From Kiritimatiellia bacterium (GTDB taxonomy: Bacteria; Verrucomicrobiota; Kiritimatiellia; SS1-B-03-39; UBA6053): a DNA stretch of 33,070 nucleotides. The stretch spans positions 4,739 to 37,808 of the forward strand of contig JAPYUI010000020.1 of the NCBI GenBank assembly GCA_029936175.1, given 5' to 3'. This document shows positions 10,935 through 29,028 of this stretch, piece by piece (position 1 is the first letter of the stretch; every line of letters begins with the position of its first letter). The position numbers and the translations under genes are program-made. The notes beneath the pieces were generated by a model that saw nothing but the letters and a program-made list of their open reading frames with translations, ran no database searches and was not told the origin of the DNA.

Positions 10935-12878
10935 ATGATTGATTTTCAGCGGGTAAGCAAATTTTACGGAGACCAGGATGTTCTGGAGGATGCGTCCTTT
11001 GTCGTGAATCCTGGGGAACGGGTTGGAATCGTCGGTCCGAACGGGGCGGGGAAGAGCACCATTTTCGGCATGATCAACGGCCAGATCCAGCCCGACAAGG
11101 GTGAGGTACTCTTTCCGCGAAAGACGCGCTTTGGTCACTTGCGCCAGGAACTCCGCGCCGACGGGGTGGACCAGGTGCTGCTCAACTACGTGGTCGACGG
11201 GGTGCCCGAGTTGAAGGAGTTGCACGGGCAGATTGAAACCCTGGAAGCCGGACTGCTGGGCCTGGAGGGCACGTTCCGGGAGAAGGAACTCCAACGCATC
11301 GGTGCTTTGCAGGATGCCTTCGAACACGCGGGTGGTTATGACATTGAAGCCCGCGCCGCCGCGGCCTTGTGCGGCCTCGGCTTCCAGGATGCTGGCTTAC
11401 AGCGCCCGTTTAACGAATTCAGCGGTGGTTGGCAGATGCGCGCCGAGCTGGCGCGAACCCTGATCACGCGCCCGGATGTGCTCCTGCTCGACGAGCCTTC
11501 CAACTACCTCGACCTGCCTGCCGTGGAATGGCTGCAACGCTTCCTGCGTAACTTTACGGGCACCCTGTTACTGGTGTCGCACGATCGCTACCTCCTCGAC
11601 TCGCTTACCACCATCACCTTGGAGGTAATGATGGGGAAGGTTTCCCGTTACGCCGGAAACTACAGCCATTACCTGGTGGAAAGGGAAGGGCGCTACGCAC
11701 AGTTGTCCGCATCGGCCAAGAACCAGGCGCGTCGCCGTGAACAGATTGAGCGCTTCATCACCCGGTTCCGCGCCAAGAATACCAAGGCCACCCAGGTGCA
11801 GAGTCGAATGAAGATGCTGGACAAGATGGAGGAGATCCAGGTGCCGGCAACCTCGCCGGACCTGTCCCTGATCAAGATTCCCGATCCGCCTCACTGCGGA
11901 ACGACGGTGTTGCAGGTCGAGGGTATGAGCAAGAGCTACGACGGTTCCGAGTTTGTGCTGAAAGATGTTGATCTAGCTCTCCAGCGTGGGGACAAGGTCG
12001 CCCTGGTGGGCTACAACGGCATGGGCAAGACGACCTTGTTGCGTATCCTGGCGGGCGAATTGGAATATACGGAGGGTAAGCGGATCGTAGGACACAAGGT
12101 TGTGATCGGGTATCAATCCCAGGAATTCTCCGATACGATGCCCCCGGAAAAGACGGCCTATGACATCGTTCGGGCGGCCGCTCGGGATACCGACGACAAG
12201 CAGGTGCGAACGATCCTCGGCATGTTCGGCTTCAGTGGCGAGGCGGCAATCAAGCCTTGCAAGGTCTTGAGCGGCGGTGAAAAAATTCGCCTCGCGTTCG
12301 CCCGTATCTTTATCAATCCACCCAACCTGCTCGTGCTCGATGAACCGACCACGCACCTGGACATCAACGGGCGGCGCGCATTGGAAGAGGCGCTGACCCG
12401 TTATGCAGGGGCGGTCTGCCTGGTCAGCCACGATGTGACCTTCGTGCAGAAAACAGCCACCCACATCGTGGCGATGCAGCCTCCCGGGATTACCCGTTAC
12501 CACGGCAACTACAGCTATTACCGCGAAAAGGTCGCAGCTCAGGCTGAGGCCCCCTTGCGTACGAATGCCTCGAAAAGCGACGTAAACGGGAAAGATAAGA
12601 AGCAGCTGCGGAAGGAACGGGCGGAACAGCGCGAAACCTTGAAAAAGAAGACCCGTGGGCTGGAGAAAACCATCGTGAAGGCGGAGGCGCGCATCGAGGA
12701 GCTGGAAGCCGAGCAGTCCAGGGTTCTTGGGTATTTGTCGGCCCACGAACCGGGCACGGATTTCGAAGACCTGAACCGCCGCTTGAGCCTCATCCAGGGG
12801 ATGTTGGTCCAGGCCAATAAGGAATGGGATATCGCGGTGGACGAATTGGATTGCGCGAAGGCGGGCATGCAGGCATGA
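10935..12878 (+). CDS. ABC-F family ATPase (translation factor type, Uup/YheS-like)
   Basis: 647 residues with two fused ABC domains and no membrane segments. Domain 1 has Walker A GPNGAGKS (34-41), signature FSGGWQMR (about 163-170) and Walker B LLLDEPSNYLD (about 183-193). Domain 2 has GYNGMGKTT (about 359-367), LSGGEKIRL (about 445-453) and LVLDEPTTHLD (about 467-477). Between them lies the charged P-site-tRNA-interaction linker (about 240-300, RRREQIERFITRFR). A Lys/Glu-rich C-terminal coiled coil (about 550-645) resembles the Uup/ABCF3 type. ABC-F proteins act on ribosomes, relieving stalls or giving antibiotic protection, and do not transport. The start has GGGAA closely upstream. The stop overlaps the M36 protease start (ATGA), so the two are probably translated together. 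Confidence 0.9.
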   Translation: MIDFQRVSKFYGDQDVLEDASFVVNPGERVGIVGPNGAGKSTIFGMINGQIQPDKGEVLFPRKTRFGHLRQELRADGVDQVLLNYVVDGVPELKELHGQIETLEAGLLGLEGTFREKELQRIGALQDAFEHAGGYDIEARAAAALCGLGFQDAGLQRPFNEFSGGWQMRAELARTLITRPDVLLLDEPSNYLDLPAVEWLQRFLRNFTGTLLLVSHDRYLLDSLTTITLEVMMGKVSRYAGNYSHYLVEREGRYAQLSASAKNQARRREQIERFITRFRAKNTKATQVQSRMKMLDKMEEIQVPATSPDLSLIKIPDPPHCGTTVLQVEGMSKSYDGSEFVLKDVDLALQRGDKVALVGYNGMGKTTLLRILAGELEYTEGKRIVGHKVVIGYQSQEFSDTMPPEKTAYDIVRAAARDTDDKQVRTILGMFGFSGEAAIKPCKVLSGGEKIRLAFARIFINPPNLLVLDEPTTHLDINGRRALEEALTRYAGAVCLVSHDVTFVQKTATHIVAMQPPGITRYHGNYSYYREKVAAQAEAPLRTNASKSDVNGKDKKQLRKERAEQRETLKKKTRGLEKTIVKAEARIEELEAEQSRVLGYLSAHEPGTDFEDLNRRLSLIQGMLVQANKEWDIAVDELDCAKAGMQA

Positions 12879-15262
12879 AACACGGGGTGAGCACGGGCTT
12901 GCTGTGGTTGCTGGCTGCATCACTTTTTTCCGAGCCCCTGCCCATTTTTCTAAGCGGAGCATCAGACGACGACCCCGAACGCATCGCCCGGGATTACCTG
13001 AATGCGCAGGTGGACAACAAGCCCACCTTGCGGCTGCTCCGTCGATGGCGGGATGCGCACAATGGCCTCCACCATTTCATTTTTCAGCAGGAACTGCACC
13101 GGTTGCCGGTATTCGGCGATCACCTTTGCGTGCACGTGACACGTAGGGGACAGGTTGTCAGTTGCCATGGTGAACTGCGCCACCTGGAGAGTCTTCCGGA
13201 AGCCGGATGGACGGCTGCGCAGGCTCGGGGTTCCGTCCGGGCGGCGCTGGACTTTCCGGTGGGGGATGAGGTCGCTGCGGAGTTGATGGTTTTCTTCCCG
13301 GAGCACGAGGCGCCCTGCCTGGTGTGGAACATGCAGATCCATGCACCGGACGGCCGCGTCGCCCTGGATGTACATGTGGATGCCGCAAGCGGGAAGGTGA
13401 TCTGGCAGAACGACCTGGTCCGGCGCTGCACGCACCGTGTTTTTGCGCCGCCCCTGGAGTCGCCCGACCACGGCCTACAGACCCTCCTGCAACATACGCC
13501 CGATCCCGTCGCCTCGCCCTTTGGCTGGCACGATACCAATGGCGTTGCCGGACCGGAGTTCACCGATACGCGGGGCAACAACACCCAGGTGCAGGAAGAT
13601 GGGGACGCGAATAACATTGGCGGGCTTCGCCCGGACGGCGGACCTTCCCTGAGCTTCGATATTCCCTTCGATCCGTCCCTGGTGGTCAGCGGAAACCGGG
13701 ATGCCGCCATGGTCAACGTCTTTTTCTGGGCCAACTATCTTCACGATGTACTGTATCATTATGGCTTCGATGAGGCCTCGGGTAATTTCCAGGCCAATAA
13801 CTACGGTCATTCCGGAACGGCGGGTGATCCGGTCCTCCTGGATATCCAGGACGGGGCCTCCGTGAACAATGCGACCTTCACCGCCAGCTCGGATGGGATA
13901 CCCGGGCGGATGCAATTGCATATATGGATAAACGGTGCGGTTACGGTCACGGTTTCCGCTCCTGCCGCAATCGTGGGCCTTCTCCAGGGGAGCGGTGCCC
14001 AGTTCGGAGGCTCCATTCCCCCGGGCGGTCTCTCCCATGAGGTGGTCCTCGCGCGGGATGCGGCTGATCCTCCACTCAACTCCACGACCGATGCCTGCTC
14101 GGCCATTACCAATGTCACGGAGGTCACGGGAAAGATCGCACTGATCGATCGAGGCGACTGCCTGTTCACCGACAAGGTGAAGCGGGCGCAGGATGCCGGG
14201 GCGATTGCTGTTATCATCGCGAACCACGAGGGCGAGGGCCTGGTTCGGATGGCGGGATCGGATGCCACGATCGTGATTCCCTCGGTCTTTATCCGCCAAT
14301 CCGCCGGCGAGGTACTCAAGGCGCAGCTCGCGCTGGGGGAGACGATCGAGGTGACGATCAGCGGGAGTCCCGAACGGGATGCGGCCCTCGACAACGGGAT
14401 CATCGCCCACGAGTATGCCCATGGCCTCACCTCGCGATTGACCGGCGGGCCGGCGAATCCGAACTGCCTTTCCACGGTCAACCGCCAGAGCGTCGGCCTG
14501 TCGGAGGGCTGGAGTGACTATTTTGGCCTGGTGTTCACCCAGGAGCCCGGGGATGTACGTCAGACCCAACGTAGCGTCGGGGCCTATGTACTGGGCGACA
14601 TCACGGGGCCGGGGATTCGTTCCCTCCCCTATGCCGCAGACCTCTCGATCAACCCGCTTACCTTTAATGACCTCTTGAATGTAAGCGACTTTCACCGCAT
14701 TGGCGAAGTCTGGTGCCTGGCCTTGTGGGAACTGTATTGGGATTTTATTGACCGCTATGGGTACGACCCCGACTTGGTTCACGGACAGGGCGGCAACAAC
14801 CTTTGTCTCCAACTGGTGCTGGACGCACTGAAGCTGCAGCCCTGCAACCCCACCTTCACCGATGCCCGTGATGCGATCCTGCTGGCTGACCAGGTCAACC
14901 ATGCCAGCGCGTACCAGTGCCTCATCTGGCGGGCCTTTGGCCGGAGAGGACTCGGTCAACTGGCGAGTGCAGGCGCCCCCACGGCCACCGTGGTGAATGA
15001 AGATTTCTCCGTGCCCCTGGGATGCGAGGCGGATATTGATCTGAGCCTTCATTCGCCCACCGGCGTGCCCTTCCAGATGGATTGGCCCGCCGTGAGCGGT
15101 GCGGTGTACCAGGTGCAGCAGCGTTTCATGTTCGATTCCGGTGCCTGGGTCGATCTCCCGGATGGCCGGGTGACTGCGACCCTGCAAAACGTGGTATTCG
15201 ATCTGCCGACAACGGCACCCACGCAGCTTTATTACCGCGTCCAACTTAAGCTGGATCCCTGA
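12875..15262 (+). CDS. Secreted M36 (fungalysin-type) metalloprotease with PA domain insert
   Basis: 795 residues from the ATG at 12875, which overlaps the ABC-F stop as ATGA. An upstream in-frame ATG at 12824 lies inside the ABC-F gene and would spoil the signal peptide. Residues 1-20 look like a signal peptide. An FTP/PepSY-like propeptide region follows (about 30-180, with VWNMQIHAPDGRVALDVHVD). The peptidase core begins around NVFFWANYLHDVLYHYGFDE (281-300). A protease-associated domain is inserted at about 360-495 (KIALIDRGDCLFTDKVKRAQDAGA). The zinc site is HEYAH (512-516), with the third ligand Glu544 in SEGWSDYFGL. The C-terminal region is beta-rich. The family digests extracellular proteins such as elastin or collagen; a nutrient role is likely. 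There is no C-terminal sorting signal. Confidence 0.9.
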   Translation: MKHGVSTGLLWLLAASLFSEPLPIFLSGASDDDPERIARDYLNAQVDNKPTLRLLRRWRDAHNGLHHFIFQQELHRLPVFGDHLCVHVTRRGQVVSCHGELRHLESLPEAGWTAAQARGSVRAALDFPVGDEVAAELMVFFPEHEAPCLVWNMQIHAPDGRVALDVHVDAASGKVIWQNDLVRRCTHRVFAPPLESPDHGLQTLLQHTPDPVASPFGWHDTNGVAGPEFTDTRGNNTQVQEDGDANNIGGLRPDGGPSLSFDIPFDPSLVVSGNRDAAMVNVFFWANYLHDVLYHYGFDEASGNFQANNYGHSGTAGDPVLLDIQDGASVNNATFTASSDGIPGRMQLHIWINGAVTVTVSAPAAIVGLLQGSGAQFGGSIPPGGLSHEVVLARDAADPPLNSTTDACSAITNVTEVTGKIALIDRGDCLFTDKVKRAQDAGAIAVIIANHEGEGLVRMAGSDATIVIPSVFIRQSAGEVLKAQLALGETIEVTISGSPERDAALDNGIIAHEYAHGLTSRLTGGPANPNCLSTVNRQSVGLSEGWSDYFGLVFTQEPGDVRQTQRSVGAYVLGDITGPGIRSLPYAADLSINPLTFNDLLNVSDFHRIGEVWCLALWELYWDFIDRYGYDPDLVHGQGGNNLCLQLVLDALKLQPCNPTFTDARDAILLADQVNHASAYQCLIWRAFGRRGLGQLASAGAPTATVVNEDFSVPLGCEADIDLSLHSPTGVPFQMDWPAVSGAVYQVQQRFMFDSGAWVDLPDGRVTATLQNVVFDLPTTAPTQLYYRVQLKLDP

Positions 15263-19152: not shown

Positions 19153-22100
19153 ATGATGAATAAAATGCACGAAAAATACGAATGGTTGAAGCGGGTTCCC
19201 CTGCTCGCCCTGATCTCCCTGTTGAGCCTGGCCTTCGATGCCGGCCCGGTTTACGGACAGGATTCCGACGGGGATACGGTTGCGGACAGCGTTGACCTGG
19301 ATGACGATAACGACGGCATTCTCGACGTGGTCGAGAGGCCAAGTCCGGATGTGACCACCTGGATCAACCAGGTTGGCGGGATTACCGCCGTGGGAAACAC
19401 CCTGCATTTCAGTTCATCGGCCCCCTCCAGTTGGAATTCAACCCTGACCTCGCTCGACTTCAGTGCACTTGGCGTCAGCGGAACCTACACGGTATCTTTC
19501 ACCCCGGACCAGGGGAATATTCGAAACGTGATGATCGGCCTGAACAAGGCGGGCCAGAACTCGGGAACTAGTACGAGCTGGTCCAACATCGACCACGCCA
19601 TGTATTTGCGGTCAGATGGTGTTCTCCGGATTTATGAAAGTGGCTCAAACAAGCACAGTTCCAGTTATTCTGCTGGCGATCTCTTGACCATTGAAGTCAC
19701 GGGCAGCACCTTGAAATACAAACGGAATGGAAGCACCCTTCGCACGAAGACCATTACCTCCGGACAGGATTTCTATATCGACACCGCGTTCCCCGGTGGG
19801 GCACCGTCCAACTACACCATTTCCAATGTCCAGTTGGACTCCGGCGGCACGGCCGTCAGTGACACGGATGGTGATGGAATCGCCGACCACCTGGATACGG
19901 ATAGTGATGGGGACGGCGTTTCTGACCTGATCGAGAGCGGGCAGGCGCAGGGCGTTGTCGACACGGACAATGACGGCCGGCACGATGGCAGCGTGGATGC
20001 TTCGGGGGTGCCGAATGCTGCTTCCGGTGGCGTGATCCCGGTCGACAGTGACAATGACCAGCGCGCCGATGTGCTGGACCTGGACAGCGACAACGACGGG
20101 GTTCTCGACGCTGACGAAAGTTTTGACACCCGTATAATGACCTGGATCAACCAGGTCGGCGGCGTGACTGTGGCTGGAAACACCCTGAGCTTCGATGATG
20201 ATAACTGGTCGGGTGCCTGGAATTCGACCATCCATTCCCTTGACTTCAGCGCGCTCGGGGTCGCGGGCGGTTTTGAGTTCAGTTTCGTCTCAGAGATATC
20301 CCCGGTTTGGAGGGCGATGATTGGCCTGAATAAGGCCGGGAATAACTCCACGGCCAGTTACTCCGACATTGACCATGCGATCTACCTGAATAAGGGCAAG
20401 GTCCTCGTGTTTGAAAACGGGGCCAACCAGGGGAACTTTGGCAACTTCTCCGCGAATGATCGCTTTTCCATCACGGTCGATGGCGGCTCGCTCAAGTACA
20501 AGCGGAACGGCGTGACATTCCTGTCCCGCGCGGTGACTCCCGGGCTCGACTACTACGTCGACAGTTCCTTCCTGGATAGCGGTGATAACGTAAATTACAG
20601 CCTGTCCGATATCCGGGTCCGGCCTTACGACGGCATCAGGGACAGCGATGGCGACACGGTTGCCGACCGCTTGGACATCGACAGTGATGGCGACTCGATC
20701 ACGGACATGGCCGAAAGCGGCCAGGATTCCAGAACCTACGATACCAATACCGACGGGCGCCATGATGGTGGAGTCGATAATGATGGTGTACCGGTTGACG
20801 CGGCGGGCGGAAAGAGCCTGGTGGATAGCGATCTCGACCTGGTCTTCGACATCCTGGACTGGGACAGCGATAATGATGGTATCCTGGATAACATTGAGGG
20901 CCCGAGCAACCCGGACGTCCTGGCGTGGAAGAACCAGGCGGGTGGTCTCACGGCCAGTGGGAATAACCTGAACCTGGATTTCGGAACCACTTCATCCGGG
21001 TGGTCCTCCACGATTCACTCTGAAGACTTCAGTACCCTGGGAGTCGGGGGTGATTTTACGTTCAGCTTTACGGCAGAGAATCACCCATGTAACTACTTTT
21101 TCCTCGGGATCAACCAGGCGGGCAACAACAGCACCGCCAGTTACTCGGATATCGATCACGCGTTTTACCTGCGCAAGACGGGGTTTCGACTCTTCGAGAA
21201 TGGCTCGCAGGTTTTAAACGCTGGATCCTGGTCCGCCGGTGATCGCTTCAGCATCGTTCGGGAAGGTTCCCAGATTATATACAAGCGCAATGGCGCCGTG
21301 GTTCACACCTCCAGCGTGATCGGGACGGGAACAGACTACTATATTGACAATTCGATGCACAGTTCGGGTTCGGGTTTGCACACGATCTCCGACGTGGAGA
21401 TCGTGGGCGCATTTGGCCATCCGCGTGATTCGGATGGTGACGGTTACGCCGACTACATCGATACGGACAGCGATGAGGACACCATAAGCGACCTGATTGA
21501 GTCCGGCCAGGACTGGGAGGTGGTCGATGTTGATGAAGACGGTGTGCATGACAGCGGGGTGGATGAGTATGGGGTGCCCGTGGCTGCTGCGGGTGGGGTT
21601 GTCCCGGTTGACACCGATGCCGATGGCACCATCGATGTGCTGGATTTTGACAGTGATTCCGATGGCATTCCCGACCAGACCGAAGGCTATGCGGATCCGG
21701 ACAACGACGGCAAACCCAATTTCCAGGACTTGGATTCAGACGGCGATGGTATTCCGGATGCCCCGGAGGTCGGCGACTACGCCCAACTGTTCTATGTTCC
21801 GGTTGAAGATGAATTGGCCCGGACCGCCTTTGATCATTACGAATCCGGAAACGTGGACCTGGACCAATATGGAGTCATCTCCATTACCGCTACGGCCGAC
21901 GGCACGGTCCTGTATTACGACCAGTGGGAAGATGGCGGATATGACCTGGATATCACCACGCCGATTAATGTCTACAGCACGGGCAACCTCTCCGGCACCC
22001 AGATCTGGGGTGATGGAGATGACGCGAACGGAAAGCCACCTGGTTTCGCCAGTGATTTCATCAGCCTGGGCGACGTGATTCGCCTCGAGAATCTGGTACC

Positions 22101-25100
22101 CATCCCCCGGGATGCCAATGACCTTCGTTTCGATGGTGGTGACAAGTTTGCCGTGACGGAACCGGTTGCCGTGACGCGTGCATCCTGGAATGACGAGGCG
22201 AAAGCCCTGCTCGCCGGAGCCCTGGAGGTCTATGATACCAGTGCCTGGGGGGTGTCCTACTCGATCCCCCTGAGTGAACATTACAGCCACTCCGATCAGA
22301 TTTTTCAATACGTGGCACTAATGATCATGGCATCACAGGATAACACGGTCGTGAACATCGATGAAGACGCGGACGGATCCTCGACGGTGATTACGCTGGA
22401 TGAAGGGGAGTCCATCCTCGTTTCCGGCAATGTGTCGGGCTACAACAACGTGGTCGCTGGTGGCCAGATTAACGCGACGCACCCGGTACAGGTGGAAATG
22501 ATAACGGGTAGCACGTACAGTCGCTACCAGTCACGCTGGTACCACATCACCCCGACGGAAAACTGGAGCTGTGAGTACTTTAACCCGGTGGCTTCCCTTT
22601 CCGGCGACGATCGTTCAGACGTGTTCGTGTACAATCCGCATCCCTTTTCGATCACGGTCAAGTATGAACGCCTGGTGAACGGGAGCTCGAGTATTAACAC
22701 CTATTCGGTCGACCCGACGTCCACCCGGACGATCCCGATCAACAGTTTGAATACGGCCCAGCGATTCTACACCGAGAACGTTACGGATACCTTCTATGCT
22801 TTTGTAGCGGTGGATGCTGTCACCCGTGCCGGCACCCACGACTGGGGACTGGCCCTGGTGCCAAATACCAGCCTGAGTCCGGCCTTGCAGGTCGGTTGGG
22901 GACCCGGCCGCGATGCCTTGTCAACCACATCGCCCAACGGTAATTACAACCCCGTCTGGGTGACGGCGGTCGCCGACACCACGGTGTACATTGACTTCAA
23001 CGGTGACGGAGGGCCCATCTCAAATGGTTGCGGAACATGGGATACATCGGTCAGCGTAGCCCGGCTTGAATCGGTTCGGATCTTTGATCCGGACGGTGAT
23101 CAAACGCAGATGAAGCTCCAGACCTGCGACGGCACTCCGATCACGGCGGCCTGGGGCCAGGACACCTCGGTTGCGCCGGGGGCCCAACCCGCGCTGGACA
23201 TGGGGACGACGGTTCCGCCCCTGCCCCTGTTTGCATCCTCGAAATCGGTGGCCCATGCGCCGGGTGGTGACCTGAATGGCGACGGTGAGTTCAATCCCGG
23301 GGATACCATCCGGTACACGATTGAAGTTTCCAACCCGGCCTATGTCCTGACCCGTCAGCTTCAGTTGTCTGACACGCTGCCTCCTGCCGGAGCAACCTAT
23401 GTGGCAGGCAGTACCTTCCGCGGCGGGATATCCATCCCGGATGCGGGGAGTACGCCGTTTCCCCTGGATGAAGGGAATTATGCTATTGGCGTGCTCGCTA
23501 GCCAGGAAGCGACGCATTTCCAATACGATATGGTGCTGGATTATCCATGGACGGTGCCGGTGGTCACGCTCGTCAGTGCGGCCACGGTGTCGGATGCCCA
23601 GAATACCTTTACGCCCAGTGTCAGTGTGCCCGTGGTCTTGAGCCCCGAGCTCACGGTTACCGTGACCACCACCACGCCGGAAGTTTGTATTGGCGATACC
23701 GCGCAGTTCTCGGTGACGGTGGAGAACACGGGCGATACCATCCTGAGTAACATCGGGAGTTCCTCGGCCCTTGCGAGCGGCTGCGACCAGGTCATTGGCA
23801 CCTTGAATATCGGTGAATCGGCAAGCTATTCCTGCAGCAAGGCCAACGTTAGCGCGGCTTTCCTGAATACGGTTGTCGCGGCTGGTGATGTGCCGGGCGG
23901 CCAGACGACCACGGGGATCGGCAGCGTCCAGGTCACCCTGCAGCCTCCAGCCACTATTTCCGGTACCGTGGTGAAGGACTTGAATGCCAATGGCCAGGTG
24001 GACGGTGGGGAAGGGGGTCTCTCCGGGGCCACGGTTTCCCTTAGCGGTCCCTCCGGAAGCTTCCAGGTGACCACAGGCTCCAGCGGCAACTTCACCTTTA
24101 CCGACCTGAAGCAGGGAACCTACACCCTGACCCGGGCAAATCCGACGGACTGGATTTCCTCGGCGGCCCTGCCGGGGACGGTGGGTGCGACGGTTGTATC
24201 CGTTGACGAAATCTCGGTGGTTGTGGCTCCGGACGATACGAGTAGCAACAACCGCTTCCTCTCCTATGTCCCCAGTACCATCTCCGGTACCGTATACGAT
24301 GAGCTGGTCATCGACGGGGTTGTGGGTGCCGGAGAGGGCCCCTTGGCAGGAGCCATTATTACGCTCACCGCTCCGGGCTTCAGTGAGCAGGTCACGACGA
24401 CGGGTGACGGCACCTACGAGTTCGACGAGCTGGAAGCGGATACCTACGTGATCAACATCATTCCGCCGGCGAATCACGGTTCTGGGAGTGCGGTTGCGGG
24501 GACCATTGGTGCCGTTGTCGATGCGGAGGACCAGATTACGGTTGTCCTGCCCCAAAGCTCGGATAGTGAAGACAACAACTTTTTCACCTACGAGCAGGCC
24601 AGTATCTCCGGGGTCATCTATGAAGACGGCGGCGCGGACGGGGTCGAGGAAGCCAGTGCCCCGCCCATTCTCGGCGTGGTCCTCAGCCTCTATACCTGCG
24701 ATGACGTTTTCATCACCAGTACCGCGAGTGCGGCGGATGGCTCCTATGCCTTCGGTGGGCTGGATCCCCGGGTTAACTACAGCATTCGTTACTCGAATGT
24801 GCCGGCCAACTTTGAAATCTCCCCGGTGAACGCATCCGATATCGAGACCGACAGCGATGCCTACGAAGATGGCCTGGTGGATGACGATGAATCCTCGACA
24901 ATCGTGTACGGGCAGTGCGAGACCTCCGCTGTATCCATCGTGAACGGCAGTTTTGAAGATCCCGTGGATCCGAACGGGGTCCGCACGACCTTCGGTGGCG
25001 GTTCATTGCACGCGTATTATATCTACGAGGATTACATTAATGGTTGGGAAACCGATGCATCCGATGACCTCGGTGAAATCTGGGACTCCGGTTTTGCCGG

Positions 25101-27450
25101 GGTACCTTCCCATGATGGTGATCAGCATGCGGAAATCAACGCAACCCGGTTTGCGGCCCTGTTCCAGGATGTCAACACCTCACCCGGGGCTCGCATGACC
25201 TGGTCCTTTGCACACCGCGGTCGCAAGGGGGTCGATGCCATTCGCCTGGAAATCGGTCCACCCGGGGGCCCTTACGTCTCCGAGGGAACCTACGCCGACG
25301 GAAAGCACAATTGGGGTGTCTACACCGGGGACTATAACGTGCCCGAGGGGCAGACCGTGACGCGTTTCCGCTATGTCGCGATTTCCACGGCCCGTGGCCA
25401 CATCTCCATCGGTAACTTCCTGGATGCGATTTCCTTTGAGGAGTGTATCCAGGTGGTTGATGGAACGGTGGCGGAAAATGACCCGACCTGTTTCGTATTG
25501 GCCGTTGGTGAAAACCGCGACACGATCGACCTGGGCATGTACGAGGTGCTTCCGCAGATCTCGGTAAATGACCAGGAAGTCCTGGAAAGTGACGGTGATA
25601 CCAAGGTCTGGGTTTGCCTCGACAAGGCAGGTGAACTTCCGGTGCAGGTGGACTATGTAACGATCAGTGGTTCTGCAGTGAGCGGATCGGATTACACGAC
25701 TACCACCGGGACGCTGGTCTTCCCGGCCTTTGAAACCTGCATGCCGATCACCATCCCGATCATTAACGATCCCACTATGGAATCAACCGAGCAATTCAGC
25801 GTCCAGATCAGCAATCCCCAGAATGTGGCGGTCGTCGATGATACCGGTGTGGTGACCATCTATGATGACGATGTACCGGCATTCAGCATATCGGGTACGG
25901 TCTACGCGGATAACGACACCAGCAACGATAACGTTATCGGTAACGATGATACGGGTATCGCGGGTGTGACCCTCGACCTCTATAAGGATGCCAACGCCGA
26001 CCAGGTGGCGCAGTTGAGCGAGTTTGTCACCACGACCACGACCGCCGGTGATGGCACGTATACTTTCCCCAACCGCGACTATGGCATGTACTGGGTCGTG
26101 GAAACCGACCTGCCCGGCTACGTGAGCGAGACGGATTCAGATGGGGTTAATGACAACGTGGTCGCAGGGCTCTACTCCAGCAACGCAACCAATGTCGACT
26201 TCCTGGATGACGATGTCCCGTTCAACGCGATCAGCATTAATGACGTCATGGTCGACGAAGATGCGGGCACGGTTACCCTGACGGTCAGCATCAACCGGGT
26301 GACCGCCGATGCCGTCAGCTTCGATTATGTCAGCGAGGGCATCCTGGCGACGGATGGCCTGGACTACCTGGGTCATGCCGGGACGGTCAACGTGGCCGGC
26401 AACGAGACGGAGCATCTGCTGGTGTTCACCGTCCTCGACGACTTGGAAGACGAATCGGATGAAACCTTCCGGGTCGTGTTGAGCAGTCCGGTCGGGGCCC
26501 TGATCCTGGATGACACCGGCCTGGTCACCATTCTCGATGATGACGAGGCTCCCGTGTTTGTCGACCTCAGTGGTACGGTGTACGGCGATTCCGACCTGGA
26601 TGACAATGATATCATCGATACAAACGATTACCCAATCGGAGGGGCCCTGATCTCCCTGTGGACCGACCCGAACGGAAACGGAGACGAATCCGATGATGGG
26701 GTGCTGGTGGAGCAGGTGATTACCGCCTCCGATGGCATGTATTCTTTCATTTCCCTGCAGTCGGGTAACTACGTGATCATCGAAACGGATCCCACGGGTT
26801 ACACAAGCGACTGGGATGCACAGGGCACGAATGACAACGTGATTGCCGGAAACTATACCGTGACGACGGGGAACCTGGACTTCCTGGATGATGATAGCGG
26901 TTGTGTTGACACGATCAATACCTTCGACACCTATGCATTCGATATTGAAGCCGCCTGCGAGTTCAGTGGATTCAGCCTCGCGACCGATGCGACGACGGTG
27001 AACGGCCACAACTACTACACGGGTGACGTGACCGCTCCGCTGGGTGCCCTGGGCGAACCGATCACCATGCAGCGCCTGACGGGAGAAGTATTGTTGATCG
27101 ATGCGAGTATCGATACGGGTGGTGCGAACAACCTGATCGTCCAGGGTGTATTGGACTTCACGGTCTTCAAGGGTGACCCGAACTCGGCTTTCCCGGGTGA
27201 GCTGGCGGGCAATCTCCTGGTGACCTACGAGGATCTGAGCACGGATGTCTTCTACGTCTACTACGAGCAGGTCTGTGGTCTCGACTACAATGGCGTGGCC
27301 GGCGGCGTGCTCGTGCTGGGTTGTAACAACTGGCCGAACCAGACCCAGAGCAAAGCCGCCTTTGAAAACAGTGGTGGAGTGGCCCGCGCCTTCACCCTGT
27401 TGGCGAGCATTCCGCCGATCTGTGGCGAGGGCGGTGGGTCCAACCAGTAA
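19153..27450 (+). CDS. Giant secreted mosaic surface protein (TSP3-like, DUF11-like, SdrD-B-like, Calx-beta-like domains)
   Basis: 2765 residues. A signal peptide covers about 1-36, ending near VYGQ; the first of several nearby ATGs is used and no start has a strong ribosome site. Order of modules: three 261-residue repeats (70-852), each a lectin-like beta domain plus an Asp-rich TSP3-like calcium segment; a large module (about 874-1355, from AQLFYVPVEDELART to TTVPPLPLF) of the kind that precedes DUF11 domains in bacterial adhesins and recalls IgGFc-binding domains; a DUF11-like domain (about 1360-1490); a second CARDB/DUF11-like domain (1499-1597); three SdrD-B-like domains (from about 1600, 1708 and 1816); a DUF642-like NGSFEDP domain (about 1928-2099); Calx-beta (2135-2242); SdrD-B (2245-2355); Calx-beta (2359-2465); SdrD-B (2470-2582); and a unique Cys-containing C-terminus. 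No LPXTG, PEP-CTERM, Por-type tag or membrane helix ends it. Adhesion or matrix function is inferred. Confidence 0.85.
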   Translation: MMNKMHEKYEWLKRVPLLALISLLSLAFDAGPVYGQDSDGDTVADSVDLDDDNDGILDVVERPSPDVTTWINQVGGITAVGNTLHFSSSAPSSWNSTLTSLDFSALGVSGTYTVSFTPDQGNIRNVMIGLNKAGQNSGTSTSWSNIDHAMYLRSDGVLRIYESGSNKHSSSYSAGDLLTIEVTGSTLKYKRNGSTLRTKTITSGQDFYIDTAFPGGAPSNYTISNVQLDSGGTAVSDTDGDGIADHLDTDSDGDGVSDLIESGQAQGVVDTDNDGRHDGSVDASGVPNAASGGVIPVDSDNDQRADVLDLDSDNDGVLDADESFDTRIMTWINQVGGVTVAGNTLSFDDDNWSGAWNSTIHSLDFSALGVAGGFEFSFVSEISPVWRAMIGLNKAGNNSTASYSDIDHAIYLNKGKVLVFENGANQGNFGNFSANDRFSITVDGGSLKYKRNGVTFLSRAVTPGLDYYVDSSFLDSGDNVNYSLSDIRVRPYDGIRDSDGDTVADRLDIDSDGDSITDMAESGQDSRTYDTNTDGRHDGGVDNDGVPVDAAGGKSLVDSDLDLVFDILDWDSDNDGILDNIEGPSNPDVLAWKNQAGGLTASGNNLNLDFGTTSSGWSSTIHSEDFSTLGVGGDFTFSFTAENHPCNYFFLGINQAGNNSTASYSDIDHAFYLRKTGFRLFENGSQVLNAGSWSAGDRFSIVREGSQIIYKRNGAVVHTSSVIGTGTDYYIDNSMHSSGSGLHTISDVEIVGAFGHPRDSDGDGYADYIDTDSDEDTISDLIESGQDWEVVDVDEDGVHDSGVDEYGVPVAAAGGVVPVDTDADGTIDVLDFDSDSDGIPDQTEGYADPDNDGKPNFQDLDSDGDGIPDAPEVGDYAQLFYVPVEDELARTAFDHYESGNVDLDQYGVISITATADGTVLYYDQWEDGGYDLDITTPINVYSTGNLSGTQIWGDGDDANGKPPGFASDFISLGDVIRLENLVPIPRDANDLRFDGGDKFAVTEPVAVTRASWNDEAKALLAGALEVYDTSAWGVSYSIPLSEHYSHSDQIFQYVALMIMASQDNTVVNIDEDADGSSTVITLDEGESILVSGNVSGYNNVVAGGQINATHPVQVEMITGSTYSRYQSRWYHITPTENWSCEYFNPVASLSGDDRSDVFVYNPHPFSITVKYERLVNGSSSINTYSVDPTSTRTIPINSLNTAQRFYTENVTDTFYAFVAVDAVTRAGTHDWGLALVPNTSLSPALQVGWGPGRDALSTTSPNGNYNPVWVTAVADTTVYIDFNGDGGPISNGCGTWDTSVSVARLESVRIFDPDGDQTQMKLQTCDGTPITAAWGQDTSVAPGAQPALDMGTTVPPLPLFASSKSVAHAPGGDLNGDGEFNPGDTIRYTIEVSNPAYVLTRQLQLSDTLPPAGATYVAGSTFRGGISIPDAGSTPFPLDEGNYAIGVLASQEATHFQYDMVLDYPWTVPVVTLVSAATVSDAQNTFTPSVSVPVVLSPELTVTVTTTTPEVCIGDTAQFSVTVENTGDTILSNIGSSSALASGCDQVIGTLNIGESASYSCSKANVSAAFLNTVVAAGDVPGGQTTTGIGSVQVTLQPPATISGTVVKDLNANGQVDGGEGGLSGATVSLSGPSGSFQVTTGSSGNFTFTDLKQGTYTLTRANPTDWISSAALPGTVGATVVSVDEISVVVAPDDTSSNNRFLSYVPSTISGTVYDELVIDGVVGAGEGPLAGAIITLTAPGFSEQVTTTGDGTYEFDELEADTYVINIIPPANHGSGSAVAGTIGAVVDAEDQITVVLPQSSDSEDNNFFTYEQASISGVIYEDGGADGVEEASAPPILGVVLSLYTCDDVFITSTASAADGSYAFGGLDPRVNYSIRYSNVPANFEISPVNASDIETDSDAYEDGLVDDDESSTIVYGQCETSAVSIVNGSFEDPVDPNGVRTTFGGGSLHAYYIYEDYINGWETDASDDLGEIWDSGFAGVPSHDGDQHAEINATRFAALFQDVNTSPGARMTWSFAHRGRKGVDAIRLEIGPPGGPYVSEGTYADGKHNWGVYTGDYNVPEGQTVTRFRYVAISTARGHISIGNFLDAISFEECIQVVDGTVAENDPTCFVLAVGENRDTIDLGMYEVLPQISVNDQEVLESDGDTKVWVCLDKAGELPVQVDYVTISGSAVSGSDYTTTTGTLVFPAFETCMPITIPIINDPTMESTEQFSVQISNPQNVAVVDDTGVVTIYDDDVPAFSISGTVYADNDTSNDNVIGNDDTGIAGVTLDLYKDANADQVAQLSEFVTTTTTAGDGTYTFPNRDYGMYWVVETDLPGYVSETDSDGVNDNVVAGLYSSNATNVDFLDDDVPFNAISINDVMVDEDAGTVTLTVSINRVTADAVSFDYVSEGILATDGLDYLGHAGTVNVAGNETEHLLVFTVLDDLEDESDETFRVVLSSPVGALILDDTGLVTILDDDEAPVFVDLSGTVYGDSDLDDNDIIDTNDYPIGGALISLWTDPNGNGDESDDGVLVEQVITASDGMYSFISLQSGNYVIIETDPTGYTSDWDAQGTNDNVIAGNYTVTTGNLDFLDDDSGCVDTINTFDTYAFDIEAACEFSGFSLATDATTVNGHNYYTGDVTAPLGALGEPITMQRLTGEVLLIDASIDTGGANNLIVQGVLDFTVFKGDPNSAFPGELAGNLLVTYEDLSTDVFYVYYEQVCGLDYNGVAGGVLVLGCNNWPNQTQSKAAFENSGGVARAFTLLASIPPICGEGGGSNQ
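19360..21708 (+). repeat. Three tandem 783-base (261-residue) protein-coding repeats
   Basis: The landmark Trp of the WINQVGG / WINQVGG / WKNQAGG motif falls at residues 70, 331 and 592, an identical period of 261 residues each time. Each unit has GNTL or GNNL, a STxxSxDFSxLGV strand, GLNKAG or GINQAG, DIDHAxYL, KYKRNG or IYKRNG, a xDxYxD segment, and then an Asp-rich TSP3-like stretch with ESGQ, a DGxHD/DGRHD motif and GVP...GG. Sequences have diverged considerably although the length has been kept. A further half unit of only the calcium-binding type follows (about 853-873). Units: 19360-20142, 20143-20925, 20926-21708. Confidence 0.9.
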
Positions 27451-27594: not shown

Positions 27595-29028
27595 CTATAT
27601 CTTCCCCGGCAGCGCAAAGGGGGCGCGATAGGCCCTGCCGAGCAGGGCGTTGGCCTCTTCATTGCCCGGGAAGCGTTCGGCTTCCGGGTCGAAGCGCAGC
27701 ATGGGCCCCAGGTGGATTTGTGCGGATGTGGCATCGATCCCATTGGCATCCAGGTGAGCGGCCATGCGGTCAAAAGTAGCGGCGTTCGGGGCATCGGCCT
27801 TGCGCATTTCCCGGGCTTCCGCGATCGAATGTTTGTTCCCGAGGCGATGTGAGATGTTGCCCTGGTGGCAGAGTCCGCAGGAGAGGTGACCGACCGCGAT
27901 CTCGGCGTTCAGGTCTGCTCGCTTGCGACTGCGCACGGCGGCGATGAAATTGGCCTGGTGGGTGCGTCCTCCGTTGCCGACGATTTGCCGGATCTTCTTT
28001 CCGTCCTTGTCGTAGAGGTGCCCACCGTCCATGCCGGCGAAATAGCCTTCCTCGCACTCGACCACGAGGCCGGTGCGGATACCCTTGTAATGATCGGCCG
28101 TGCGCATGCCCTTTTTCGCCGGAAGGTTGCGGACCTCCATGATGATCGGTGCCGGTTGGTAATCGTAGTAGACCAGGTGGGTGTTGGGGGTTTCGCCGTC
28201 GTCATTCCAGCCGAAGCGTCCGCCCACGCTGACCACGCCGGGTGCGAGCGTCTCGTAGCCTCCGACCCAGCGGGCGAGATCGAGTTCGTGCGGGCCATTG
28301 TTTCCCAGTTCCCCGTTGCCGGTTTCCCAGACCCAGTGCCAGTCGTAATGCAGGTTCTTACGCATGAGCGGGCCCTTGGCAGAGGGTCCGCACCAGAGGT
28401 CGTAGTCAACATGTTTCGGTACGGCCTGGGCACCCTTCACCTTGCCGATGCTCCCGCGGACGCTGTAGTGGCACACCCGGATTTGCTTGATCTTTCCCAG
28501 CTCCCCCTTGCGGAGCGCCGTGAAGGTTTCCGCCAGGGCCGGGTCCGAACGACGCTGGGTGCCCGATTGGACGATGCGGTCATATTGCCGGGCTGCGGCA
28601 ATCATCTGTCGGCTCTCCTCGATCGTGTAGGAGACCGGCTTCTCCACGTAGACGTCCTTTCCGGCCTGGCAGGCCCAGATCGTCGCCAGGGCGTGCCAGT
28701 GATTGGGTGTCGCAATCACCACCGCATCCAGCTCCTTGTCATCCATCACCCGTCGCAGGTCAGTATGGGTTTTCGCCTGCAGATCACCCAATTCTTTTGC
28801 CCGCGCGGCGAGGATGTTCCGGTCGGGATCACAGAGTGCAGCGACGCGTACCCCGTCCATCGCCTTGAACATCTGCATATGCTGTTTGCCCTTTCCGCGT
28901 AGCCCGATGATCGCGACCTGAATCGTGTTGTTGGGGGAATCGTTGGCTGCGCGGAGGACGGTGGGGAGGGATGCGGTGGCGGCTGCCGCCGCAGTGGATT
29001 TAAGGATGGCCCGTCGGGTTGTCTTCAT
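27595..29028 (-). CDS. Tat-exported Gfo/Idh/MocA family oxidoreductase
   Basis: 477 residues. The N-terminus has a twin-arginine signal, TTRRAILKS (3-11), followed by an Ala-rich stretch ending near LRAA. The NAD(P)-binding Rossmann fold starts at IQVAIIGLRGKGKQH (36-50), where the usual GxGxxG is modified, and continues with ALCDPD (64-69). The family signature EKPVS is at 129-133 and ATPNHWHAL at 106-114. The C-terminal catalytic domain is present, so the length is normal. Exported members are very common in planctomycetes and verrucomicrobia and probably oxidise or reduce sugars or cyclitols in the periplasm; the substrate is unknown. The ATG has AGGA seven bases upstream. The stop faces the terminator of the giant gene, so the two genes are convergent and not co-regulated. 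Confidence 0.93.
   Translation of the reverse strand: MKTTRRAILKSTAAAAATASLPTVLRAANDSPNNTIQVAIIGLRGKGKQHMQMFKAMDGVRVAALCDPDRNILAARAKELGDLQAKTHTDLRRVMDDKELDAVVIATPNHWHALATIWACQAGKDVYVEKPVSYTIEESRQMIAAARQYDRIVQSGTQRRSDPALAETFTALRKGELGKIKQIRVCHYSVRGSIGKVKGAQAVPKHVDYDLWCGPSAKGPLMRKNLHYDWHWVWETGNGELGNNGPHELDLARWVGGYETLAPGVVSVGGRFGWNDDGETPNTHLVYYDYQPAPIIMEVRNLPAKKGMRTADHYKGIRTGLVVECEEGYFAGMDGGHLYDKDGKKIRQIVGNGGRTHQANFIAAVRSRKRADLNAEIAVGHLSCGLCHQGNISHRLGNKHSIAEAREMRKADAPNAATFDRMAAHLDANGIDATSAQIHLGPMLRFDPEAERFPGNEEANALLGRAYRAPFALPGKI

Follow-up and report, generated by a model that had tools for sequence, protein, structure and literature searches.

The locus described here raises the question of how a giant, exported-looking protein that ends without any recognisable anchor is held at the bacterial surface, or whether it is released. 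In PVC bacteria, the movement of such giant proteins and their retention at the surface are poorly known. Our window, the whole stretch of 33,070 nucleotides that was analysed, comes from a Kiritimatiellia bacterium with a draft genome of 5.04 Mb (518 contigs, 86% complete). The protein, P0001, had been described in a first-pass annotation as a 2765-residue mosaic surface protein with a signal peptide, and both its length and its N-terminus were confirmed: a single intact frame on the forward strand runs from the ATG at 19153 to the stop at 27450, and a K/R-rich start is followed by LLALISLLSLAF and then by VYG and QD on the two sides of the predicted cleavage site, which by eye is a Sec-type signal. 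This is also the most hydrophobic segment of P0001 (best 19-residue Kyte-Doolittle mean 1.85). The protein is very acidic, with a net charge of -324, and contains 18 cysteines, five of which lie within the last 183 residues. Its features are listed below.

19153..27450, + strand: whole open reading frame of P0001, intact, 2765 aa
19153..19260, + strand: Sec-type signal peptide, residues 1-36 (MMNKMHEKYEWLKRVPLLALISLLSLAFDAGPVYG, then Q), from sequence and hydrophobicity; kept in paralogues L004 and L005
19351..19848, + strand: unnamed module, copy 1, residues 67-232 (lectin-like as a guess only); 64-70% identity to paralogues on contigs C12 and C391
20134..20628, + strand: unnamed module, copy 2, residues 328-492, about 48% identical to copy 1
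20917..21408, + strand: unnamed module, copy 3, residues 589-752, about 45% identical to copy 1
21775..23130, + strand: IgGFc-binding-like adhesin module, residues 875-1326, conserved
23218..23952, + strand: DUF11/DUF7507 repeats, residues 1356-1600 (Pfam, NCBIfam)
23956..24927, + strand: SdrD_B repeats 1-3, residues 1602-1925 (Pfam)
24928..25482, + strand: stretch first named DUF642-like, residues 1926-2110
25483..25887, + strand: Calx-beta 1, residues about 2111-2245 (Pfam)
25888..26217, + strand: SdrD_B repeat 4, residues 2246-2355 (Pfam)
26218..26562, + strand: Calx-beta 2, residues about 2356-2470 (Pfam)
26563..26898, + strand: SdrD_B repeat 5, residues 2471-2582 (Pfam)
26899..27447, + strand: orphan terminal module, residues 2583-2765, five Cys, unique in all searches

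The signal is thus followed by TSP3-like acidic stretches that alternate with three modules of about 165 residues, then by the module at 875-1326, the DUF11/DUF7507 region, three SdrD_B repeats, the stretch 1926-2110, Calx-beta and SdrD_B domains in alternation (two of each) and finally the 183-residue terminal module. Most of the mosaic proposed at first pass was recovered with Pfam, which reported five SdrD_B stretches (E 1.2e-34), two Calx-beta domains (E 1.8e-23) and DUF11 (E 3.3e-7, two DUF11-type stretches, with DUF7507), as well as four SpaA matches; SpaA, SdrD_B and DUF11 are known stalk domains. The TSP3-like DSDGDG repeats (residues 37-66, 233-325, 493-588 and 753-875) are plain in the sequence and lie below the Pfam reporting level, and the DUF642 assignment found no support: neither Pfam nor NCBIfam gave a match for residues 1926-2110 at E 10. 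The first pass had missed the triplicate module between the TSP3 stretches. Identity to copy 1 is 44-48% in the other two copies. Pfam and NCBIfam returned no match for copy 1, and among 39 genomes searched the module occurs in this one only, in three proteins with conserved N-termini. No Pfam adhesive domain and no carbohydrate-lyase domain was found in P0001.

The two other proteins with this N-terminus (L004:1243-2481 and L005:1501-2334) have the signal peptide and first module in common with P0001 at 64-67% identity. L004, a protein of 412 residues on contig C12, is 67% identical to P0001 over the first 320 residues and ends differently, in a shared tail called A5 that P0001 lacks, whereas L005 is truncated where its contig stops. 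This pattern suggests domain shuffling by recombination, and P0001 and the short L004 form a natural pair for comparison.

The earlier statement that P0001 has no recognisable anchor held in all comparisons. The PEP-CTERM, LPXTG, Por-tail and barrel models of Pfam and NCBIfam gave no match in the protein. P0001 does not combine a PEP motif, a transmembrane helix and a basic tail as an exosortase substrate would, nor LPXTG, helix and basic tail as a sortase substrate would; its C-terminus reads PPICGEGGGSNQ. Neither a Por_Secre_tail match, indicative of type A T9SS substrates, nor an autotransporter C-terminal beta-barrel was detected in P0001, and genome-wide there was a single borderline Por_Secre_tail match (23.7 bits, cut-off 23). 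No membrane-like segment was seen apart from the signal peptide, the best 19-residue Kyte-Doolittle mean in the last 200 residues being 1.12. The A5 tail ([FY]YR[LIV]xV near the stop) was absent by HMM and by profile-profile comparison, as was t2, a terminal module described below. An anchor hidden by a simple frameshift was also considered and rejected, since the other two frames past the stop contain no tail and a convergent oxidoreductase gene has its end at 27595.

Shared tails are nevertheless present in this genome, with nine PEP-CTERM matches, three exosortase matches and many copies of A5, in which a TSP3 repeat is followed by about 75 residues that close with [FY]YR[LIV]xV and a few more positions. 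First seen at the ends of L004 and of a 4013-aa frame on contig C353, A5 was found in 32 copies in the genome with a two-row profile and in at least 57 with a 31-row profile, by which it was present in all 14 genomes searched. Nearly all of the two-row examples fetched end a few residues from the stop; the exceptions L173, L178 and L184 are internal or run on, one of them preceding sulfatase-like sequence. Among the loci retrieved, 64 near-full-length matches include a stop, and every one of them ends within 10 residues of it; the loci overlap, and 64 is not a number of independent genes. One A5 protein outside the training set of the profile lies in the window itself and serves as a contrast to P0001, of which it is no part:

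12824..15262, + strand: M36 fungalysin-type peptidase, 813-aa frame, A5 at residues 750-810 (E 1.3e-7)

Pfam recognises only the TSP3 part of A5, and NCBIfam names no such tail, Amuc_1099 giving matches with a best E of 3e-6. A weak profile match (E 1e-3) was obtained to small domains of a glucanase/chitosanase, which we take to be discoidin-type CBM32 domains. Literature searches yielded no description of A5, though one may exist. It may serve in sorting, bind carbohydrate or act as a structural cap. Tentatively, and as a possibility rather than an expectation, A5 could be an undescribed sorting or surface-retention tail of dozens of large exported proteins in Kiritimatiellota, with P0001 in a second class that has a private end and is released or held differently. 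A5 is reused, unnamed and directly testable as a sorting tail, and it deserves pursuit more than P0001 does. PEP-CTERM and A5 counts were 9 and at least 57 in the genome of P0001, 107 and 21 in the relative G003, and 84 and 6 in G006, a genome of the same family; this inverse trend is not monotonic across all genomes. Two of the exosortase matches, on contigs C221 and C278 of G000, have identical scores and frame lengths (553 aa), probably because one contig is present twice in the draft.

Relatives of P0001 were also followed through the adhesin module at 875-1326. It was found in six of 29 genomes, including this one; G006 has a match on its contig C1. A profile from a four-row alignment detected at least 107 loci in genome_contigs, distributed over Verrucomicrobia, Kiritimatiellota, Chloroflexi, Cyanobacteria, Bacteroidota, Proteobacteria, Actinobacteria and others. 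In most cases the module lies towards the N-terminal end of a long frame that looks exported. Pfam IgGFc_binding (PF17517) matches two of nine aligned homologues (best E 9e-9) and not the module of P0001 itself. An AlphaFold2 model of the module is of good quality (mean pLDDT 79, pTM 0.82) and nearly all beta, and Foldseek gave no solved structure matching its whole length, only local beta-sandwich similarity with a query-length TM of at most 0.20 among the matches listed.

The ends of 34 complete relatives are diverse, and none among the adhesin-module homologues is of the P0001 type. Type A T9SS tails occur in four of the 34 (L062, L080, L123 and L133) and an RTX-type end in one; LPXTG was recognised by motif in two hosts of actinobacterial type, L106 (Coriobacteriia) and L122 (Ilumatobacteraceae), one of which Pfam also matches. 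A module of about 170 residues, t2, ends the proteins at L045/L060, L047-L049, L114, L128 and L134, from Kiritimatiellota, Verrucomicrobia and Lentisphaerae, and L117 ends in A5. That some homologues carry the tag of their own host where it has a known anchor system, such as LPXTG or a T9SS tail, points to a family located at the surface or outside the cell, which is best seen as one whose tails are swapped to suit the host. Several further observations were made at these loci. The t2 module also ends one large protein of the P0001 genome (L011, weakly aligned). Three of the 34 tails end in a C25 (gingipain-type) peptidase (PF01364), assigned by eye to L108, L119 and L129, and L050 appears by eye only to have such an end. 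One tail, by eye that of the Chloroflexi protein L110:16157-16606, apparently has a sortase domain fused to its end (PF04203, E 1e-24). At four loci, a gene of about 300 codons with an A5-type tail adjoins the adhesin-module gene. In one genome it lies upstream of that gene, in two others downstream, and its product is possibly a partner of the adhesin-module protein:

L047:3577-4494: A5-tailed neighbour gene of about 300 aa
L048:3805-4749: A5-tailed neighbour gene of about 300 aa
L114:13260-14297: A5-tailed neighbour gene of about 300 aa
L128:14217-15110: A5-tailed neighbour gene of about 300 aa

In addition, an adhesin-module frame in L013 (contig C302) is open at a contig end, and a compatible HYR-like/DUF11/SdrD_B frame in L012 (C138) is open at another; the two are perhaps pieces of one giant gene.

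The first-pass annotation had suggested that P0001 is either released or held by an unrecognised mechanism, perhaps through its terminal module. The module indeed contains five cysteines (residues 2584, 2602, 2708, 2724 and 2757). However, comparison of the last 183 residues with the whole genome found the module once, in P0001 alone, so no sorting domain shared with other proteins was revealed. It was not found in 96 other relatives, and 388 genomes sampled from the phylum gave no credible match; ten weak matches were discarded as unrelated proteins (among them a diaminopimelate-epimerase-like and a HAD-like enzyme) or stray frames. The module was also absent from genome_contigs and from viral contigs, in scans that reach close relatives only, so that distant relatives may exist beyond the phylum, and plasmids gave only a chance match, which overlaps a cytochrome oxidase gene. 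No match was returned by Pfam, NCBIfam or PDB sequences either. Modelled alone and with no homologues, it reached a pLDDT of 35. Since sorting domains should be reused and this module is single-copy, the proposed sorting mechanism is left without support. At the level of sequence the module gives no sign of a sorting role, though it may still bind something. Between the two alternatives, release or a non-covalent hold is the simpler reading.

We favour, with a probability that we would place a little above even, the interpretation that P0001 is an exported fibrillar-adhesin-like protein which is released or non-covalently held and carries an orphan terminal domain. It would be exported by Sec. 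The three modules of about 165 residues and the IgGFc-binding-like module probably bind a target, and DUF11, SdrD_B and Calx-beta domains would form a long acidic stalk that is probably calcium-binding. The C-terminal end would be a domain private to P0001 rather than a sorting signal. Passage across the outer membrane would most likely follow a general Sec-dependent pathway; seven secretin-domain matches occur in the genome. P0001 would then be released, or kept on the cell surface or in the matrix through binding instead of a covalent anchor. Counted for this interpretation were the domain content, the spread of the adhesin module across phyla, the secretins and the fact that PEP-CTERM/exosortase and A5 both exist in the genome while P0001 has neither. 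On the other hand, a 2765-residue protein with a stalk and an N-terminal head makes most sense when held at its C-terminus, which would make true release an odd design, and the terminal module could be an anchor of one protein only, hidden from sequence comparison.

In an alternative that we regard as unlikely, the terminal module is a dedicated retention domain that binds a surface glycan or protein, or cross-links by its five cysteines, with the head pointing outward. The module sits at the end of the stalk, its odd number of cysteines could leave one free, and a head distal to the anchor is usual in Gram-positive fibrillar adhesins (PMC8286594); yet cysteines occur elsewhere in P0001 too, and a module found in no other protein of the genome or its relatives is not what a normally reused sorting domain would be. 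Even less probable in our view is attachment by way of the middle of the protein or its N-terminal part, for instance with IgGFc-like or triplicate modules binding the capsule of the cell itself, with the orphan end as an outward ligand-binding domain. The restriction of the triplicate module to three proteins of a single genome would fit this idea, as would the private nature of the terminal domain, since ligand-binding ends are often private, but the Gram-positive relatives show the opposite polarity, their IgGFc-like module being distal to the LPXTG anchor. Finally, replacement of a normal tail by an assembly or recombination artefact might be imagined from the fragmented draft and the A5 end of L004, but it is highly improbable given a frame intact to the stop, a third-position GC of 0.75 at the end of P0001 (0.70 in the rest, 0.69-0.76 in the neighbours), no tail in other frames and ordinary genes that continue along the contig.

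Returning to release or non-covalent retention, P0001 can be compared with known kinds of protein. SdrD_B-type repeats match the MSCRAMM SdrD of Staphylococcus (NF012181) at 54.9 bits, but far under the family cut-off of 2500 and over the B-repeat part only, and P0001 has no LPXTG. Others are the large TSP3/MSCRAMM proteins of PVC bacteria, among them one of about 6000 residues with a signal peptide, no transmembrane helix and, in a figure legend, MSCRAMM and TSP3 domains, which was read as extracellular (PMC12057145). P0001 shares the giant size, signal peptide, lack of a transmembrane helix and TSP3 plus MSCRAMM-type domains, and differs in that no carbohydrate-lyase domain was found in it. 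In the survey of fibrillar-adhesin-like proteins, SpaA is a stalk domain and nearly half of the proteins have no known anchor (PMC8286594), so the lack of one in P0001 is ordinary for its kind. Although its adhesive part has no Pfam match and its terminal domain is an orphan, P0001 resembles these proteins in being long, multidomain and secreted, with SpaA/SdrD_B-type stalk repeats, a putative adhesive part and no known anchor. P0001 thus looks like a normal member of a familiar sort of adhesin mosaic, and A5 is the item to follow.
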